Source: a virus. Taken from it: 24,012 nucleotides of DNA. Shown one piece after another: positions 3,745-21,247 of this stretch; within the stretch, counting starts at the first letter, position 1; each line of letters begins with the position of its first letter. The notes beneath the pieces were generated by a model, which was given only the letters and a program-made list of their open reading frames with translations, was not told the DNA's origin and searched no databases. The position numbers and the translations under genes are program-made. The stretch lies in the IMG/VR virus record IMGVR_UViG_3300036845_000859, positions 1 to 24,012 of that record. One strand, written 5' to 3'.

Positions 3745-5520
3745 ATGACTTGGAAAATCACCGACCCGCAAGGGCATGAGGCGGCGAAAGTCCGCTGGGA
3801 GCTGGTGCGCTGGACCCGTGGCCGCGGCCTCGACATCGGCGCCGGTATGACGCGCACCTTTCAGCACTTCATCACCGTCGATAACAACATCGACGCGCAG
3901 CTCTTCGGCCACCCAATGCCCCGCCCGGACCTGTACGTCACCGACGGCGGGGACCTGTCGATCCTCGCCGATGCGTCCATGGACTTCATCTTCTCGTCCC
4001 ACATGCTCGAGCACGTGGAGGAGGAGCGCCTGGTCAAGGTGCTGCGCGAGTGGCTGCGGGTGTTGAAGACCGGCGGGCGCTTGATCCTGTATCTCCCGGA
4101 CGCGGACGAGTACCCGAAGGTCGGCGAGGAGGGCGCGAACCGGGACCACAAATGGAACGTGACCTACAACGGGGTGATGGAGCTCATGGGCCACACCGGG
4201 GTGGGCTTCGATCTCATGGACTACCAGAAGCGCAACGCCGGTTTCGAGTACTCGTTGTTCTTTGTGTTCAAAAAGACGGCCGAGACCCCGCGCGCCTTCC
4301 ACCACGATCGGCCGCGCCCGACCGCCAAGACCTGCGCGGTGATCCGCTACGGGGCGATCGGCGACATGATGCAGGCGGCGTCCGTGCTGCGAGCACTCAA
4401 GGAGGAGGGCTACCACACGACGCTCTACGCCGCCGAGGAGCCGAACGGCTGGGAGGTCCTGCAGCACGACCCGCACGTGGACGAGTTCTACATCCAGGGC
4501 CGCGGCCAGGTGCCGGACCAGGCGCTCCCTGAGTTCTGGGCGAACGAGCGGCCGAAGTACGACAAGTGGGTGAACCTGTGCGAGAGCGTGGAGGGCGGGC
4601 TGCTCGCGATGACCAATCGGCCGGTGGACACCTACTCGCCCGTGGCGCGGCACCAGATGCTCGACTTCAACTACGTCGAGCGCCAGCACTTGATCGCCGG
4701 CGTCATGCAATATCCACCGCGCGTGCATTTTTATGCAAACGCGGCGGAGCAGAAGTGGGCGCACGCCGAGAAGAAGGCCTTCGGCAAGTTCCTGGTGCTC
4801 TGGTCGCTGTCCGGCTCCTCGGTGCATAAAGTGTGGCCGTGGGTGGATAACATCGTGTCGGGGCTCCTGCTCGACTTCCCCGAGGTCACGGTGGTGTTCG
4901 TCGGCGGTGCCGATGGCGTCATCCTCGAGCAGGGCTGGGAGCAGGCGACGGGGCGCGTGCATCGCCGCGCCGGCAAGTACACCATCCGCGAGACCTTGAG
5001 CCTCGCGCAGATTGCGGACGTCGTGATCGGCCCCGAGACCGGCGTGCTCAATTCGGTGAGCCACGAGGAGATGCCGAAAGTCATCTTCCTGTCCCACTCC
5101 ACCGTCGAGAACCTGACGCGCGACTGGTGCAACACCCACAGCCTGGTGTCGGTCGGCACCGTGTGCCAGGGCCGCGGCAACGATGAGGCTCCGGCGTGCC
5201 ATCGCCTGCACCACGGCTGGGCCCGCTGCACGGAAGCCCCGCCGCTCCCGGGCACCGAGGATCAGCACGAGCGCAAGGGCTCCGGCATCGCCCAGTGCCA
5301 GATGGACATCGGCGCCGAGGATGCCTACCGGGTCATCTGGCACGTGGTGCAATGGCGCCTCGAGGAGTACGCCAAGCGCGACGGCCTACCGCCGCCCGGG
5401 GTGGTGAAGCTCACGGACGAGGAAGTGGCGCGCACCCGCGCGATGCTGCCGAAGTACATGGAGAACCCCGCCCAGGTGGTGGCCGAGAAGCCGCCAGAGA
5501 AAAGCGTGCTCGAGGTGTAG
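3745..5520 (+). CDS. Fusion of SAM-dependent methyltransferase and GT9-type glycosyltransferase
   Basis: The product has 591 residues, with a GAGGAG site (3733-3738) before ATG 3745. Residues 1-180 form a class I methyltransferase domain with motif I GLDIGAG (28-34), an acidic residue after the next strand (VDNN, 45-48), DFIFSSHMLEHV (80-91) and the post-motif strand GGRLILYLP (110-118). Residues about 195-545 match the heptosyltransferase (GT9, GT-B fold) pattern: RYGAIGDMMQA (201-211) is the usual N-terminal glycine-loop motif, and VVIGPETGVLNSVSH (426-440) is the sugar-nucleotide side motif. The rest is a helical tail. GT9 enzymes transfer heptose or related sugars from nucleotide donors; the methyltransferase half may modify the same product. 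The gene sits between head and connector genes. The acceptor (LPS, virion protein or other glycan) is unknown. Domain calls are confident; the biological role is inference. Confidence 0.85.
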   Translation: MTWKITDPQGHEAAKVRWELVRWTRGRGLDIGAGMTRTFQHFITVDNNIDAQLFGHPMPRPDLYVTDGGDLSILADASMDFIFSSHMLEHVEEERLVKVLREWLRVLKTGGRLILYLPDADEYPKVGEEGANRDHKWNVTYNGVMELMGHTGVGFDLMDYQKRNAGFEYSLFFVFKKTAETPRAFHHDRPRPTAKTCAVIRYGAIGDMMQAASVLRALKEEGYHTTLYAAEEPNGWEVLQHDPHVDEFYIQGRGQVPDQALPEFWANERPKYDKWVNLCESVEGGLLAMTNRPVDTYSPVARHQMLDFNYVERQHLIAGVMQYPPRVHFYANAAEQKWAHAEKKAFGKFLVLWSLSGSSVHKVWPWVDNIVSGLLLDFPEVTVVFVGGADGVILEQGWEQATGRVHRRAGKYTIRETLSLAQIADVVIGPETGVLNSVSHEEMPKVIFLSHSTVENLTRDWCNTHSLVSVGTVCQGRGNDEAPACHRLHHGWARCTEAPPLPGTEDQHERKGSGIAQCQMDIGAEDAYRVIWHVVQWRLEEYAKRDGLPPPGVVKLTDEEVARTRAMLPKYMENPAQVVAEKPPEKSVLEV

Positions 5521-5523
5521 CGC

Positions 5524-6564
5524 ATGACGGACTTGAACTTAGGTGGCGTCCAAAACCCCCAGCAGCCGGCGACCTCGGGGGTCTACACCTTTGCGCTGGT
5601 CCGGGACGACATCATCCGCGACGCCATGCAAAACCTCGGGCTCCTCGAGGAGTCCGAGATCCCCTCGGCGCGGGAGATCACCGACTGCGCGCGCAAGCTC
5701 AACATGTCCATCAAGCAGTTGGCCGGCACCATGGACAAGGCGCCAGGCTGGAAGATGTGGACCCGGGAGCGCGGCGACCTGTTTCTCACGAGCTCGAAGA
5801 ACGCCTACGACTTAGGTGCCGTCGGGGATCACTGGGCGGGCGGGGTGACGGGACGCGCGGAGCCCACCACCTACAACGCGACCACCCTGTCGGGTGCGTG
5901 GGCGGCGGGCACCACGGTCCTGCCGGTGCCGGACACCACGGCGATGAACATCAACGACTTCATCGGGATTCTGGTGGGCTCGGACCTGTACTGGACCACC
6001 ATCTCGGCGGTGAACGCCGGCGTCTCGGTGGTGATCCCGGCCCCTGGGCTCTCGGGCGCGGCCGCGTCGGGCGCGCAGATCTTCAACTACACCAAGCAGG
6101 CGCAGCGGCCGGTGCAGATCGAGACCGGCCTCCTGCACTACACCCAAGGGAACGATGACCCCTTGACGGCGATGACGCTCCCGGTCTACGAGGCGCTGCC
6201 CACCAAGAACATGCCCGGCAACGTGCAGGACCCGACGGCCTTTTACTACGAGCCCCGGCTCAAGAACTTAGCCGGGCGGCTCTTCATCGATTGCTGGGGC
6301 GCGCAGGATGTCACGCGGGTGCTGCACTTCGTGTTCCTGCGCCAGATCCAGGACTTTGTGAACCCCGGCGACCTGCCGGACTTCCCGCAGGAGTGGTACA
6401 ACCTGCTCTGCTGGGATCTCACCTTCGCCATCCACCCGATGTTTGACGTCGATTGGACCGCCGGCATGCAGGCGCTCTACGCCCGGGCGATCACCCCGGC
6501 GCGGGAGTCGAACCCCTCGAGGGACGCGGCCTTCTTCCAGCCGGACGATGAGGACGGGAACTGA
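5524..6564 (+). CDS. Head-completion/connector protein, P22 gp4-like
   Basis: The 346-residue product starts at ATG 5524, three bases after the preceding stop codon. The N-terminal helical part (DDIIRDAMQNLGLL..., then ARKLNMSIKQLAG at about 56-68) has the pattern of P22 gp4-like proteins (I..AL..LG followed by a second helix with LN.M). P22 gp4 itself is about half as long; the extra part here is a beta-rich segment (about 110-195, GTTVLPVPDTTAMN...) and a C-terminal helical domain (about 225-320, ending near LLCWDLTFAIHPMFDVD). It would seal the portal after packaging and carry the tail hub encoded next. The stop overlaps the following ATG (ATGC at 6564), indicating translational coupling with the gp10-like gene. 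Confidence 0.75.
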   Translation: MTDLNLGGVQNPQQPATSGVYTFALVRDDIIRDAMQNLGLLEESEIPSAREITDCARKLNMSIKQLAGTMDKAPGWKMWTRERGDLFLTSSKNAYDLGAVGDHWAGGVTGRAEPTTYNATTLSGAWAAGTTVLPVPDTTAMNINDFIGILVGSDLYWTTISAVNAGVSVVIPAPGLSGAAASGAQIFNYTKQAQRPVQIETGLLHYTQGNDDPLTAMTLPVYEALPTKNMPGNVQDPTAFYYEPRLKNLAGRLFIDCWGAQDVTRVLHFVFLRQIQDFVNPGDLPDFPQEWYNLLCWDLTFAIHPMFDVDWTAGMQALYARAITPARESNPSRDAAFFQPDDEDGN

Positions 6565-8051
6565 TGCAGCCCGTGCCGCTCTTTGGGTCGGGGGTGTACG
6601 GGAAGTCCGCGGTCGTCACCCGCCAACGGCGCGTGAACTGCTACTACGAGACCCGCAACGACGGCGACAAGGCGAAGGTGGTGGTCTACGGGACGCCGGG
6701 CCTGGTGCTGCTCTTCAACGTGTCCCAGCCCGGCAACCTCCCCTTACGCGCGATGCTGTGCGCGAACGAGACGGCGCTCTACGCGGTGCAGGGCAACCAG
6801 TTCTTGAGCTTGAACAGCGCGGGCGCCGCGCTCTTCGCCGCCACCATCAACACCATCGGCGGCTTAGTCTCCCTCGCCCCCTCTCCCAATGGCGCGCAGA
6901 TCGTGCTGGTGGACGGGGTGGGCGGCTGGGTGTACCAGCCGGGCGCCGGGACCTTCCTCGCGGTGCCGAACGGCATCTGGTTCGTACCGGGCGCGATGAC
7001 CGTGACCCAGGTGGGCGGCTACTTCGTCGCCGAGATTCCGGGCACCAACCAGTTCGGTGTCTCGAACTTGAACGATGCGACCACCGGCTCCGCGCTCTCC
7101 TTCGGCGCGATCGCCGCCTTCCCCGACATCTGCGTGGCGGTGGATAACGTCGCCGGGAACCTGGTGCCCTTCGGCAACACGCATCTGGAGTTCTGGCAGC
7201 CGCAGGGCTTCCCGCCGCCGGCGAACCCCTTCGCCCCCATCCAGTCGGCGACCGTGCAGGTGGGCCTGGCGGCGGTCTTCTCCCGCGCGCACGTGGCCTC
7301 GCAGCTGCTCTTCTTGGGCAAGGAGACCACCGGCACGAAGCGGGTGTACGCGATCAACAACTACGCCGTTAACGCCATCTCGGACGAGATCGACTGGATC
7401 ATCAACCAGCCGGGGTTCGTGGTCACCGACGCGGTGGGCCTGTCCTATCAGCGCGACAAGCACCCCTTCTACCAGCTCACCTTCCCGACCATGAACCGCA
7501 CCTTCCTGTACGACTTATCCACAGGCATCTGGAACGAGACGCAGACGGGCTTAACCACCGGCGGCCCGGTGCGCCACCAGGGGAACCTCTCGAGCTACTA
7601 CGGGGCGGTGAACAACGGCGACACCCTGGTCACCGACTGGGCCAACGGCAACGTGTACCGCTTCGATGATGCGACCTACAGCGACAACGGCGTGCCGCAG
7701 CTCTTCGAGGTCATCACCAAGCACCAGGTGAAGGGCTACAACCGCTTCCGGATCCCGCAGCTCTACCTCGACATGGAGACGGGCGTGGGCCTGCCCGGGG
7801 TGATCTCCGGCACGCCGGCCCAGGGCGTGACGCCGCAAATCTCGATCGAGGTGTCGAAGGACAACGGCCGCACGTGGCTCGCGCCGCGCCTCATCGGCTT
7901 AGGCGTGCAGGGCTCGTACCTCACCAAGGTCAAGGCCCGGCGCTTCGGCCAGGCGCGGGTGTTCACCTTTCGCTTTCGAATCACGGATCCGGTGAAGCGC
8001 GTGATCACCGACGGGGCCCTGCAGACCAAGGTCAGCAAGGGGGGCAAGTGA
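6564..8051 (+). CDS. Packaged-DNA stabilisation/tail hub protein, P22 gp10-like
   Basis: The 495-residue protein begins MQPVPLFGSGVYGKSAVV, and its ATG overlaps the previous stop. P22 gp10 (472 aa) begins similarly, with a short N-terminal tail, then repeated beta-propeller-like blades. Matching elements here include VNCYYETRNDG (early), VVYGTPGLVLLFNV, blade-like repeats, FGNTHLEFWQP (212-222), and a C-terminal section KSISIEV-like (QISIEVSKDNGRTWLAP) with TFRFRITDPVKRVI near the end. The role would be to close the tail below gp4 and hold the packaged genome. Size, context and motifs make the assignment likely. Confidence 0.8.
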   Translation: MQPVPLFGSGVYGKSAVVTRQRRVNCYYETRNDGDKAKVVVYGTPGLVLLFNVSQPGNLPLRAMLCANETALYAVQGNQFLSLNSAGAALFAATINTIGGLVSLAPSPNGAQIVLVDGVGGWVYQPGAGTFLAVPNGIWFVPGAMTVTQVGGYFVAEIPGTNQFGVSNLNDATTGSALSFGAIAAFPDICVAVDNVAGNLVPFGNTHLEFWQPQGFPPPANPFAPIQSATVQVGLAAVFSRAHVASQLLFLGKETTGTKRVYAINNYAVNAISDEIDWIINQPGFVVTDAVGLSYQRDKHPFYQLTFPTMNRTFLYDLSTGIWNETQTGLTTGGPVRHQGNLSSYYGAVNNGDTLVTDWANGNVYRFDDATYSDNGVPQLFEVITKHQVKGYNRFRIPQLYLDMETGVGLPGVISGTPAQGVTPQISIEVSKDNGRTWLAPRLIGLGVQGSYLTKVKARRFGQARVFTFRFRITDPVKRVITDGALQTKVSKGGK

Positions 8052-8317
8052 GCGGCATTCTGGGTCCCGCCCCGTTAAACGCGCCCGTCATGCAGGACAA
8101 GATCACGCACCCGGCCTGGCGCGCGTGGCTCTCCCAGCTCGCCGTCGTGGCCCAGGCGGTGGGCTCGGGCGGCACCACCGCGCAGCGGCCGGTGGGCACG
8201 CCGACCGTGCCGCTGTTTCTCTACCAGCCTTTTTTCGATACGACCCTGGGGAAGCCGATATGGATCAAAACCTTGAACCCGACGGTGTGGGTGGATGCGA
8301 CGGGGACGCCGGTATGA
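8048..8317 (+). CDS. Small tail-associated protein (89 aa, GTG start)
   Basis: The gene starts at GTG 8048, which overlaps the previous TGA (GTGA at 8048-8051). The product has 89 residues: SGILGPAPLNAPVMQDK, then WRAWLSQLAVVAQAV, and the ending PLFLYQPFFDTTLGKPIWI followed by VWVDATGTPV. The FFDTTLGKPIWIK...VWVDATG pattern is, from memory, common in podovirus tail fibre and adhesin C-termini and in small stand-alone proteins next to gp10-like genes. It occupies the gp26 (tail needle) position of P22 but lacks a long coiled coil. It is probably a structural or adaptor component. The call is based on motif recall and position. Confidence 0.65.
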   Translation: MSGILGPAPLNAPVMQDKITHPAWRAWLSQLAVVAQAVGSGGTTAQRPVGTPTVPLFLYQPFFDTTLGKPIWIKTLNPTVWVDATGTPV

Positions 8318-9123
8318 GCAAGGACGTCATGGTCACGGAGCCGGAGAAGGTCACGCGCCTCGAGCGCGACATGCTGCGCATGCCGCAGGCCGCCTGCACC
8401 GTGCGCCACCACTTCTCGCCGGGCCTGTACATCCGCGAGCTGCGCATGCCCGCGGGCACCATCGCGCTCGGGCACTACCAGCGCCACGCGCACATGAACA
8501 TCCTCATGCAGGGCGCCTGCCGGGTCTTAAACCCCGAAGGGCACCCGATCGAGATGCGCGCGCCCTTGACCTTCGTCGGCGCCCCGGGCCGCAAGGTGGG
8601 CCTCGTGATGGAAGACATCGTGTGGTTGAACGTCTATCCGAACCCGGACGACTGCCAGGACATCGATGCGCTCGAGGCGCGCCACCTCTTGAAGTCCCCG
8701 ACCTACCGCACCCACCAGAACGAGCAGGACTACGTGGAAATGCTCACCGAGGCGGGTGTCTCGGCCGAGCTCGTGTGGGAGCAGTCGAGCCGCGACGATG
8801 ACTGCATCCCCTGGCCGGCGGGCACCTACAAGGTGAAGGTCGGCGATTCCAAGATCGCGGGCAAGGGCCTCAACTGCACCGCCGACTTCGAGGCGGGCGA
8901 GGTGGTGGCGCCGGCCATCTGGCAGGGCAAGCGCACCCCGGCTGGGCGCTACACCAACCACTCCTCGAACCCCAACGTCGAGCCGCTGCAGCGCTTGGAC
9001 GGCAACACCTACTGGGTGGCGCTGCGCCCGATCTCCGGCTGTCGCGGCGGCCAGGACGGGGAGGAGATCACCATCGACTACCGCCAGACCGTGGCCTTAG
9101 CCCTTCGGAGGATGGACCCATGA
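8314..9123 (+). CDS. Cupin-like plus SET-domain protein (predicted lysine methyltransferase)
   Basis: The start is ATG 8314, overlapping the previous stop (ATGA, 8314-8317); product 269 residues. Residues about 35-110 form a cupin-like barrel: metal-binding pattern GHYQRHAHMNILMQG with H54, H58 and H60, then GLVMEDIVWLNVYPN. Residues about 172-258 carry the SET fold: KVGDSKIAGKGLNCTADFEAGEVV (the S.I.G.GL...F..GE pattern), YTNHSSNPN (213-221, the NHS.NPN pseudoknot) and GEEITIDY (249-256, the GEE...DY motif). These are the hallmarks of SAM-dependent protein lysine methyltransferases. It is inside the virion operon, and its stop overlaps the next start (9120-9123). No targets are visible. Confidence in SET is high; cupin is likely; substrate unknown. 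Confidence 0.85.
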   Translation: MSKDVMVTEPEKVTRLERDMLRMPQAACTVRHHFSPGLYIRELRMPAGTIALGHYQRHAHMNILMQGACRVLNPEGHPIEMRAPLTFVGAPGRKVGLVMEDIVWLNVYPNPDDCQDIDALEARHLLKSPTYRTHQNEQDYVEMLTEAGVSAELVWEQSSRDDDCIPWPAGTYKVKVGDSKIAGKGLNCTADFEAGEVVAPAIWQGKRTPAGRYTNHSSNPNVEPLQRLDGNTYWVALRPISGCRGGQDGEEITIDYRQTVALALRRMDP

Positions 9124-9857
9124 GCGGCATAGCGACGGCAGTTATCGGCGCGGCCGTGATCGGCGGCGTCGCCACCACCATCGCCTCGAACAAGGCCGCG
9201 TCCGCGACCAAGAGCGCGAGCGACGCGGCGATCCGGGGCGAGCAGGGCGCGCTCGCCCAGCAGGCGGCCCTCTCCCAGCCCTACCGGGACTTAGGCACCA
9301 GCAACATCCCCACCTACCAGTCGCTGCTCTCGGGCAACAAGCAAAAGACGGAGGCGACCCTGCAGTCGATGCCCGGGTATCAGTTCGCGCTCGATACCGG
9401 CACCGAGGCGGCGAAGCGCTCGAGCGCGGCGTCCGGCTTGAACCTCTCCGGCAACCAGGTGGGCGCGGTCGAATCCTTCGGCGTGGGCCTCGCGGACTCG
9501 ACCTACCAGACCGAGCTTGCGAACCTCCTGCAACCCATTCAGTTGGGCCAGGCGGCCGCGGCGGGCCAGGCGGCGAACATCGGCGCCACCGCGAATACCG
9601 TGGGCTCGCAGCTCATCGGCCAGGGCAACACCCAGGCCGGGATCGATGCCAACCAGGCCGCGTCCTACACGAAACTCGCGGGCGGCGCGGCCAATTCCTT
9701 GCTGACCTACAACACCCTGCAGGGCTTGAACAATCCGGGCGGCGGCAACCCGCAGAACTTGGGCGGCTCGACCCCGGTGGCACCGGACGGCTCGACGTTG
9801 ACCTATGACGCGAGCGGCAACATCACCGGCTCCGCCCCCGTGGCCGCTGTCCCGTAA
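9120..9857 (+). CDS. Ejection/internal virion protein, P22 gp7-like position
   Basis: The 245-residue product starts at ATG 9120, overlapping the SET gene stop. Residues 5-22 are a Gly/Ala-rich hydrophobic segment (TAVIGAAVIGGVATTIA), followed by a helical Ala/Gln/Ser-rich body. PGYQFALDTGTEAAKRSSAASGLNLSGNQ (positions about 85-113) is, from memory, a recurrent motif of phage DNA-transfer (ejection) proteins. The C-terminal 45 residues are Gly/Asn/Pro-rich and likely disordered. In P22-like phages the three genes after the tail hub encode ejection proteins (gp7, gp20, gp16). This gene is the first of three consecutive such genes, and the position fits gp7. It would be packaged inside the head and pass into the host envelope with the DNA. 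Confidence 0.72.
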   Translation: MSGIATAVIGAAVIGGVATTIASNKAASATKSASDAAIRGEQGALAQQAALSQPYRDLGTSNIPTYQSLLSGNKQKTEATLQSMPGYQFALDTGTEAAKRSSAASGLNLSGNQVGAVESFGVGLADSTYQTELANLLQPIQLGQAAAAGQAANIGATANTVGSQLIGQGNTQAGIDANQAASYTKLAGGAANSLLTYNTLQGLNNPGGGNPQNLGGSTPVAPDGSTLTYDASGNITGSAPVAAVP

Positions 9858-9866
9858 GGAGCACCG

Positions 9867-11468
9867 ATGGCACAGTTTGACCCCTCTACCATTCAGGACA
9901 TCGGCGCGGGCGCCGCCTCCTTCGACCCGGCGGCCGACACCCAAAAGGCGTTGACGCTGGCGGACCTCTACGACCAGAACAAGCTGAACAAGATCAAGGT
10001 CGCCGACGCCACGCAAAACCAGCAGGACATGACCTACGCCAAGCAAATCCTGCAGGGCAAGGACCTCTCGAAGCTCGACGATCAGAACGCGGCGGTCGCG
10101 AAGATCACCCAGCGCAACCCGCAGTTGGGCATGGAGCTCATGCGGTCCTTTTCCGGCCAGCGCCAGGACCAAAACGCCGAGAAGGAGCAGCAGCTCAAGC
10201 TCTACGATCACAAGAACGACATCATCGGCGGGGCGATGTACCAGTTGAAGGCGAAGCACGACCAGCTCCTCCAACAGGGCATGAACGAGCAGCAGATCCA
10301 CGACGCCATGAAGGGCGACGTGATGACCACCATCAAGGGCCTGGTCGAGGCGAAGACCCCGGACGGCAAGCCGCTGCTCGATCAGAACGACGCGAAGATC
10401 ATGCAGCAGGGCTTCGGCCAGGGCTACAACACCGGCTTCGTGGACCAGGCCGTGTCGCGCAGCGCCCAGGCGAAGGCGGCGATCGCGCAGAAGTTCAAGG
10501 AGCTCGACGAGCAGCGCAAAACCAAGGACGAGGACCGCAAGGAGAAGGCGACCAACGCGGCGATCGCGGCCGGGACCCGCCGCGGCGACCAGGCCGATCG
10601 GCGTTTGACCGACCAGGAGCAGGCGGCCAAGGCGAAGCGGGCGGTGGCGGAGGGCGGCAAGCTCGAGCCCGACGATGCCACCGCGCTCGCCGAGCAGTAC
10701 CTGGCCGGTGACAAATCGGTGATGACGGGCTTGGGCCGCGGCGCGCAAGGGGCGGAGAACATCATCCTGGTGCGCCACGCGATCGCGCGCGAGGCGAAGG
10801 CGCAGGGCATGAAACCGGCCGACATCGCCGCGCGTCTGGCCGAGTACCAGGGCTACACCGCCGAGCAGCGCTCCTTGGGGACGCAGCAGGCGAACGTCGA
10901 GATGGCCTCCTCCGAAGCGCAGCAGATGATCCAAAACGCCCGCGGCGCCTCGGACGACACGGCGGTGGCGCGCGCCCACTCGCTCGGCTGGAACAAGATC
11001 GACCAATGGTCGGACAAGCAACTGCAGGGCCCGGAGAACGCGAAACTGGCCTCACTCAAGGCGGCCACCACGGCGGTCATCAACACCTGGTCCCGGGCCA
11101 TCAACCCGAAGGGCGTCGCCACGGTGTCCGACAAGGAGCACGGCTACGAGCTCCTAAACGCCGCCCAGGACAAGGCCACCTACGACGCCGTGCTTGATCG
11201 CTTCCAGCAGGAGACCGAGGCCTCCCTCGCGGCGCCGGCGTCCGCCAAGCAGCGCCTGCACGATGCCTTCATTTCGGGGCAAACCCCGACCCCAGCCGCA
11301 GCGCCCACGGCGGCCTCCTTGCAGCCCACCCCGGGACGCGACGCACCGCCCGGCGGCGGTCCGGCGGCCATCCCGAAACCCGGCGCTACCCCGGGGCCGA
11401 CCGCCACGGGGCCGGACGGCAAGAAGGTGCAGTGGAACGGGACCGCCTGGGTGCCGGTGGGTGGCTGA
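9867..11468 (+). CDS. Ejection/internal virion protein, P22 gp20-like position
   Basis: The 533-residue product starts at ATG 9867 with an AAGGAG site ten bases upstream. It is almost entirely helical, rich in Ala, Gln, Lys and Asp (for example KAAIAQKFKELDEQRKTKDEDRKEK), with no transmembrane segment, and has a Pro/Ala/Gly-rich linker (about 465-515) and a tail ending KKVQWNGTAWVPVGG. Helical, Gln/Ala-rich, strongly charged composition with a low-complexity linker is typical of podovirus ejection proteins. It lies second of three such genes, and its stop overlaps the next GTG start by eight bases. I see no lytic transglycosylase motif. The position matches P22 gp20, but no direct sequence similarity to it is claimed. 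Confidence 0.65.
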   Translation: MAQFDPSTIQDIGAGAASFDPAADTQKALTLADLYDQNKLNKIKVADATQNQQDMTYAKQILQGKDLSKLDDQNAAVAKITQRNPQLGMELMRSFSGQRQDQNAEKEQQLKLYDHKNDIIGGAMYQLKAKHDQLLQQGMNEQQIHDAMKGDVMTTIKGLVEAKTPDGKPLLDQNDAKIMQQGFGQGYNTGFVDQAVSRSAQAKAAIAQKFKELDEQRKTKDEDRKEKATNAAIAAGTRRGDQADRRLTDQEQAAKAKRAVAEGGKLEPDDATALAEQYLAGDKSVMTGLGRGAQGAENIILVRHAIAREAKAQGMKPADIAARLAEYQGYTAEQRSLGTQQANVEMASSEAQQMIQNARGASDDTAVARAHSLGWNKIDQWSDKQLQGPENAKLASLKAATTAVINTWSRAINPKGVATVSDKEHGYELLNAAQDKATYDAVLDRFQQETEASLAAPASAKQRLHDAFISGQTPTPAAAPTAASLQPTPGRDAPPGGGPAAIPKPGATPGPTATGPDGKKVQWNGTAWVPVGG

Positions 11469-20789: not shown

Positions 20790-21247
20790 GCTACAAGGTC
20801 GTCGGGTGGATTCTCGCCTTCCTCGCCTGGTCCGGCTTTTGCTACTGGCAGGGCGGTCAGGGCACGCGCCTCGAGGTGGCAACGAAACAAGAGACGATCG
20901 ACGCCAAACTCGAGACGAAGCGGGCGAACGATGAAACGATAGTGCAAAAAGAAGGAACGACCTATGCCGCGGCCACCTCTGCTCCGATCCCTGACGCTGT
21001 CGCTCCTGTTGTCAGCGTGTGCTACTACCGCACAGCCCCCGCCGTGCCAGGCGCCCACCCCGCCGGATCCGGCGCTCATGATCCAGCCCCCGTACCAAAC
21101 GCGGGTGGAGGGGATCCTTATCTGCCTGCTCCCACCATCGTCCGATGGAACACCAAACCCCTTGTGCGAATCGGACGCGACGCCGACGCCCAAGTAGCGG
21201 GCCTGCAGGACTACATCAACCGGGTGTGCCTGGCGAAGGCGCCTTGA
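20786..21247 (+). CDS. Rz: Inner-membrane spanin subunit, Rz-like
   Basis: The start is ATG 20786, overlapping the previous gene by four bases; product 153 residues. An N-terminal membrane helix (VVGWILAFLAWSGFCYW, about 5-21) precedes a periplasmic helical segment (RLEVATKQETIDAKLETKRANDE, about 28-50) and a Pro/Ala/Gly-rich region. The C-terminal end IGRDADAQVAGLQDYINRVC is typical, from memory, of Rz-like proteins of beta/gammaproteobacterial phages. It would bridge to the outer-membrane lipoprotein Rz1 and disrupt the outer membrane at lysis. The 77-aa Rz1-like frame (20964-21197) lies inside it, the characteristic nested arrangement. Confidence 0.78.
   Translation: MSYKVVGWILAFLAWSGFCYWQGGQGTRLEVATKQETIDAKLETKRANDETIVQKEGTTYAAATSAPIPDAVAPVVSVCYYRTAPAVPGAHPAGSGAHDPAPVPNAGGGDPYLPAPTIVRWNTKPLVRIGRDADAQVAGLQDYINRVCLAKAP
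20964..21197 (+). CDS. Rz1: Outer-membrane spanin lipoprotein, Rz1-like (nested in Rz)
   Basis: This 77-residue frame is embedded in the +1 frame of the Rz gene, with a GAAGGA site (20951-20956) eight bases before ATG 20964. It begins with a positively charged signal sequence (MPRPPLLRSLTLSLLLSAC) carrying a lipobox (LSAC, Cys19), so it would be lipidated and transported to the outer membrane. The mature part is Pro-rich (PPPCQAPTPPDP) with little charge, as in Rz1 proteins. The nested position is strong support. Confidence 0.82.
   Translation: MPRPPLLRSLTLSLLLSACATTAQPPPCQAPTPPDPALMIQPPYQTRVEGILICLLPPSSDGTPNPLCESDATPTPK

Follow-up and report, generated by a model that had tools for sequence, protein, structure and literature searches.

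Gene order around a cupin-SET gene in a virion operon

The window, the whole 24,012-nt stretch of a viral contig that was analysed here, carries a forward-strand open reading frame whose product joins an N-terminal cupin domain to a C-terminal SET domain (cupin-SET; Table 1). A prior sequence-only reading had given this frame 4-nt start/stop overlaps on each side and had placed it in a virion or ejection operon. Both points agree with what we find: ATGA overlaps occur at either end of the gene (8314-8317 and 9120-9123), and the order in the window runs from a P22 gp10-like gene through a small gene to cupin-SET and then to an ejection gene of PHROG 598. Its identification of the upstream neighbour as a tail hub is unsupported, the 89-aa gene at that place being variable among relatives. 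Also in the virion operon, at 3745-5520, lies a gene for a protein of 591 aa whose N-terminal part is a class I methyltransferase domain (Methyltransf_11, E=7.6e-10) and whose remainder returned no confident family match, and at 20964-21197 the window has a weak match to an Rz-like spanin (PHROG 3198, E=0.005).

Table 1. Features at and around the cupin-SET gene (window coordinates)
Feature	Position	Strand	Evidence or remark
P22 gp10-like packaged-DNA stabilisation / head closure Hc3	6564..8051	+	PHROG 578, E=3.5e-76
Small 89-aa virion-operon protein, P22 gene 26 position, differs among relatives	8048..8317	+	Sequence; synteny
Cupin-SET protein	8314..9123	+	269 aa; PHROG 34170, Pfam SET, AF2 pLDDT 91.6
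Cupin (jelly-roll) domain, residues ~29-110	8398..8643	+	AF2 strands, Foldseek cupins, PHROG 12032/24280
Helical linker, cupin to SET, residues ~117-158	8662..8787	+	AF2 secondary structure
Compact SET domain, residues ~173-257, SET-I loop nearly absent	8830..9084	+	Profile, AF2, Foldseek, alignment
SET motif I GxG (G183-K-G185)	8860..8868	+	Both Gly invariant, 87/87
SET motif NHSSNPN (N215-N221)	8956..8976	+	N215 and H216 invariant, 87/87
SET motif GEEITIDY (249-256)	9058..9081	+	E251, T253 and Y256 invariant, D255 in 85/87; Y256 predicted as catalytic
Ejection protein, P22 gp7 / T7 gp14-like pore protein, proposed client	9120..9857	+	PHROG 598 'DNA ejection', E=1.4e-20
Ejection-protein N-terminus, M1-S2-G3	9120..9128	+	Small residue 3 in phages with SET, Trp/Phe where the upstream gene is cupin-only
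Large protein, P22 gene 20 (second ejection protein) position	9867..11468	+	Position; no family match

The link to the ejection gene is the constant part of this arrangement. Among 87 SET loci whose sequence extends far enough downstream, 76 have an ejection-protein frame directly after the SET gene, and the genes upstream of cupin-SET vary among relatives. The same position maps to gene 14 in P22, before gene 7, and to gene 13 in T7, before gene 14, and cupin-only homologs occupy it ahead of gp7/gp14-like proteins in Vibrio, Shewanella, Dickeya and Autographiviridae phages. The likeness to T7 gp13 and P22 gp14 is one of position only, no sequence similarity to cupin-SET having been found: among Pfam families neither DUF2824 (P22 gp14) nor PF11090 (T7 gp13) matches the protein, searches with T7 gp13 and P22 gp14 gave nothing useful beyond their own families, and GNAT-like homology at this slot was limited to a weak Acetyltransf_4 match in phage PAE2 (E=0.027). 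Both families belong to the GNAT clan, a membership that has no part in the argument below. T7 gp14 forms an outer-membrane pore (PMC8954989), and the reported virion proteins of the T7-like phage phiPsa17 include gp14-16 but not gp13 (PMC4517105), as would suit a factor for assembly, and not a component of the virion, at this slot.

A compact SET domain fused to a cupin

Chromatin is the main setting in which SET domains are known, and the sequence-only reading had pointed to clear SET hallmarks at the C-terminus of this phage protein. Every line of comparison agrees with that assignment. Pfam PF00856 (SET) matches the C-terminal part above its gathering score (E=1.1e-4), the profile of PHROG 34170 ('unknown function') covers the protein at full length (E=4.9e-66), and a profile of 52 relatives matched MLL1 (E=3e-8) and PBCV-1 vSET (8e-5) in the PDB. 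AlphaFold2 models were template-free, and the full-length one was built from the family alignment; its mean pLDDT is 91.6, and its pTM of 0.59 leaves the relative placement of the two domains unsure. The SET part modelled alone reached a pLDDT of 91 and a pTM of 0.81, and the structural search that had been named beforehand as the check, Foldseek with this model, returned vSET (3kma) first (E=5.9e-5, TM 0.63), followed by MLL1, EZH2 and NSD. The loss of SAM-binding residues that was to have counted against the idea was not seen, since S179, G183, G185, T208, R212, N215, H216, E251, T253 and Y256 are invariant among 87 distinct full-length relatives. On predicted structure and profiles, then, the C-terminal part is a real SET fold with complete motifs. 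Purifying selection acts on the protein: against its nearest relative (97% identical), dN/dS is about 0.09 for the whole gene and 0.09 for the SET part.

The fold, GxG, NHSxxPN and GEExxxDY are common to the phage protein and to PBCV-1 vSET (A612L), MLL1 and EZH2. Unlike these, the phage domain is fused to a cupin, is encoded in a virion operon with no histone substrate available, and carries an extra GCxGG insert ahead of the GEE motif. It also has a much shorter SET-I region, nearly absent in alignments of the SET part, and is therefore a compact SET. The SET-I insert forms one wall of the substrate groove; its length varies among SET proteins and is not strictly defining.

Foldseek with the full-length model returned cupins (OxdC, KdgF) and so confirmed the jelly-roll fold of the cupin-like domain proposed earlier. 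The HxxxHxH metal site proposed along with it did not hold up across the family: H54 and H60 are common among the 87 relatives, and position 56 is Q or H, but H58 is kept in just 6 of the 87, position 58 being mostly Thr or Phe, so that the complete motif occurs only in the window protein and a few other sequences. Lys replaces H54 in cupin-only relatives, and no conserved 3-His/1-Glu cupin metal site is visible across the 87 relatives and the cupin-only homologs; a metal-dependent catalytic cupin enzyme was ruled out on these grounds. The domain is homologous to the cupin-only podovirus proteins of PHROG 12032/24280, annotated 'short tail fiber protein' or 'tail fiber adhesin', which share the gene position and lack the SET domain.

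Contrary to the rarity of SET domains in phages that the first reading implied, relatives of cupin-SET were found in at least 310 IMG/VR contigs in a first scan and at least 503 in a second. Named genomes with family members include Rhodoferax phage P26218, phage zth2-2 and Pseudoalteromonas phage PH1, and six full-length relatives come from contigs catalogued as parts of bacterial or archaeal genomes. In public databases these proteins go by 'hypothetical protein' or by SET labels assigned automatically. By profile and structural match, PHROG 34170 and UniProt A0A6J5PTS6 ('SET domain containing protein', uncultured phage) belong to the same family, and both carry automatic annotation only, with no descriptive paper found; in our search of the open literature, likewise, neither a SET nor a cupin-SET protein was found described for a phage. 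Cupin-SET is thus a real, conserved and previously undescribed phage SET family of short-tailed phages.

Several loci depart from the common architecture. Five (L204, L210, L219, L224 and L233, with L230 partial) encode the reverse order, SET-cupin, again just before the ejection gene, which implies that fusion or rearrangement happened separately at least twice. At L156/L157 (3863-4773) cupin and SET are two adjacent overlapping frames, followed by an ejection protein that begins MSW, and at L255 (2842-3675) a fused SET that has lost one residue of NHSxxPN (NHGKPN), possibly a decayed domain, also precedes an MSW ejection protein.

Residue 3 of the ejection protein changes with the SET domain

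The ejection protein downstream of a cupin-only gene starts M-(S/T/A)-(W/F) in 63 of 64 distinct N-termini (M-S/T-W/F after the PHROG 12032/24280 proteins), and T7 gp14 starts M-C-W. In SET phages, by contrast, residue 3 is Gly, Ala, Ser, Val or Met, non-aromatic in 129 of 132 distinct N-termini, and 128 of the 132 have Ser2, giving a start of M-S-(G/A/S/V/M). The mutual information with SET status amounts to 0.86 of 0.94 bits at position 3; positions 2 and 4-16 carry no more than 0.31. The same data yielded both the pattern and its first test; about 48 of the 132 SET-phage N-termini were fetched after the pattern had been noticed, and 45 of these 48 fit.

Closely related ejection bodies that differ in SET status also differ in residue 3 (L203/L184, L095/L148, L247/L154 and L220/L183). 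On an ejection-body tree that leaves out the first 15 residues, 10 independent contrasts on well-supported branches went the same way in 9.4 cases on average and the opposite way in none (sign test, p ~0.004), and on the best such tree 28 of 29 contrasts were in that direction. The exceptions are L157, with its separate SET frame (MSW), L268, with an intact SET (MSF), L233 (MGY) and L255, with its altered NHS motif (MSW).

Another origin of the pattern would be physical linkage, in that the residue-3 change could be co-inherited with the upstream gene through recombination near the start codon and would then not reflect contact. The cupin tree resolves gains of SET poorly, its supported branches forcing only 1 change where the best tree needs 8, which leaves room for recombination that linked the N-terminus with the upstream gene. 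The reverse-order loci bear on this directly: the cupin end of their SET-cupin fusions adjoins the ejection gene and resembles cupin-only proteins, and residue 3 is nevertheless small in 4 of the 5 downstream ejection proteins, a point against mere linkage to the adjacent 3' end. The ejection-protein alignment is otherwise highly variable, too much so for a scan of the collection. An ejection N-terminus that changes with the presence of SET suggests that these phages modify or chaperone the apparatus with which they inject their DNA.

Possible roles of the cupin-SET protein

A conserved lysine was looked for as a substrate in two neighbouring virion proteins. None was found in the family alignment of the ejection protein, where the best column is 33% K and where the protein of one SET phage (L020) has no lysine at all, or in the gp20-like protein, where the best column is 48% K. 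Without a high-K column in either neighbour a conserved lysine target there is unlikely, and this candidate was rejected. The comparative data point instead to the ejection-protein N-terminus.

We propose, at what we consider even chances, that cupin-SET is a morphogenesis factor for the podovirus ejection machinery, in which the cupin binds the ejection protein and the SET domain methylates or docks it near its N-terminus. The cupin domain would serve as a non-catalytic binding or assembly module for the adjacent P22-gp7/T7-gp14-like pore-forming protein, the compact and motif-complete SET would be an AdoMet-dependent protein methyltransferase, and it would act on, or at least dock, the ejection protein at or near the N-terminus. 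Binding to the ejection protein, catalysis by SET and the ejection protein as substrate are all things that we infer from comparison of sequences. An association of SET with DNA-ejection machinery in at least 500 contigs implies a post-translational modification or a SET-based chaperone that would serve the building of a trans-envelope pore; it provides the slot of P22 gene 14 and T7 gene 13, about which little is understood, with a testable role, and residue 3 of the ejection protein offers a one-residue comparative handle on the substrate.

Of the specific reactions that this proposal could accommodate, the conserved N-terminus of Ser followed by a small residue suggests the alpha-amine as a candidate methylation site. 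The fuller version, in which SET methylates the N-terminal alpha-amine (of Ser, after Met removal) of the phage's own pore-forming ejection protein, we hold to be rather improbable as it stands. The alpha-amine would have to enter the narrow SET channel, so the residue next to the N-terminus would have to be small; if true, this would explain both the switch from Trp/Phe to Gly/Ala/Ser and the absent conserved lysine, and would amount to protein N-terminal methylation by a SET domain during virion assembly. A SET-type enzyme that methylates an alpha-amine has a precedent in the Rubisco small subunit. Methylation of that alpha-amine is reported in a paper that does not name the enzyme.

Two other accounts of the SET domain are less likely. 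SET enzymes are mostly lysine methyltransferases, and the domain might be an active one directed at a host protein or another virion protein, with the residue-3 switch an incidental linkage; the complete motifs fit this, and a conserved target would have to lie elsewhere given that no lysine is conserved in the gp7-like and gp20-like proteins. The place of the gene among late virion genes, its fixed adjacency to the ejection gene and the confinement of the switch to one residue speak against it, and we regard it as an unlikely but credible alternative. The domain might also be a catalytically dead or vestigial binding module in a protein that is purely a chaperone or scaffold, as the near absence of the SET-I loop and the fact that equivalent genes (cupin-only, T7 gp13 and P22 gp14) manage without SET would allow; we think this unlikely, as AdoMet and catalytic motif residues that are invariant in 87 diverse sequences would not be expected of a dead enzyme, and the low dN/dS of the SET part weighs the same way. 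A role for cupin-SET as short tail fibre or adhesin, which the PHROG 12032/24280 labels on its cupin part suggest, is very improbable, because we found no experiment behind those labels, the gene occupies the gp13/gp14 position before the ejection gene and apart from the tail fibres, and we know of no adhesin precedent for a SET domain.

Besides the family placed here in the ejection operon, two further genes came to light. A Comamonadaceae contig, probably a prophage (L097, 5884-6450), encodes the linker and SET, with no cupin detected, one small gene before an ejection-like protein, and a scan with this mini-SET found nothing. In the large genome of Cyanophage P-RSM6 (HQ634193), a distant SET-like match at 132115-132534 overlaps or adjoins an annotated baseplate wedge subunit.
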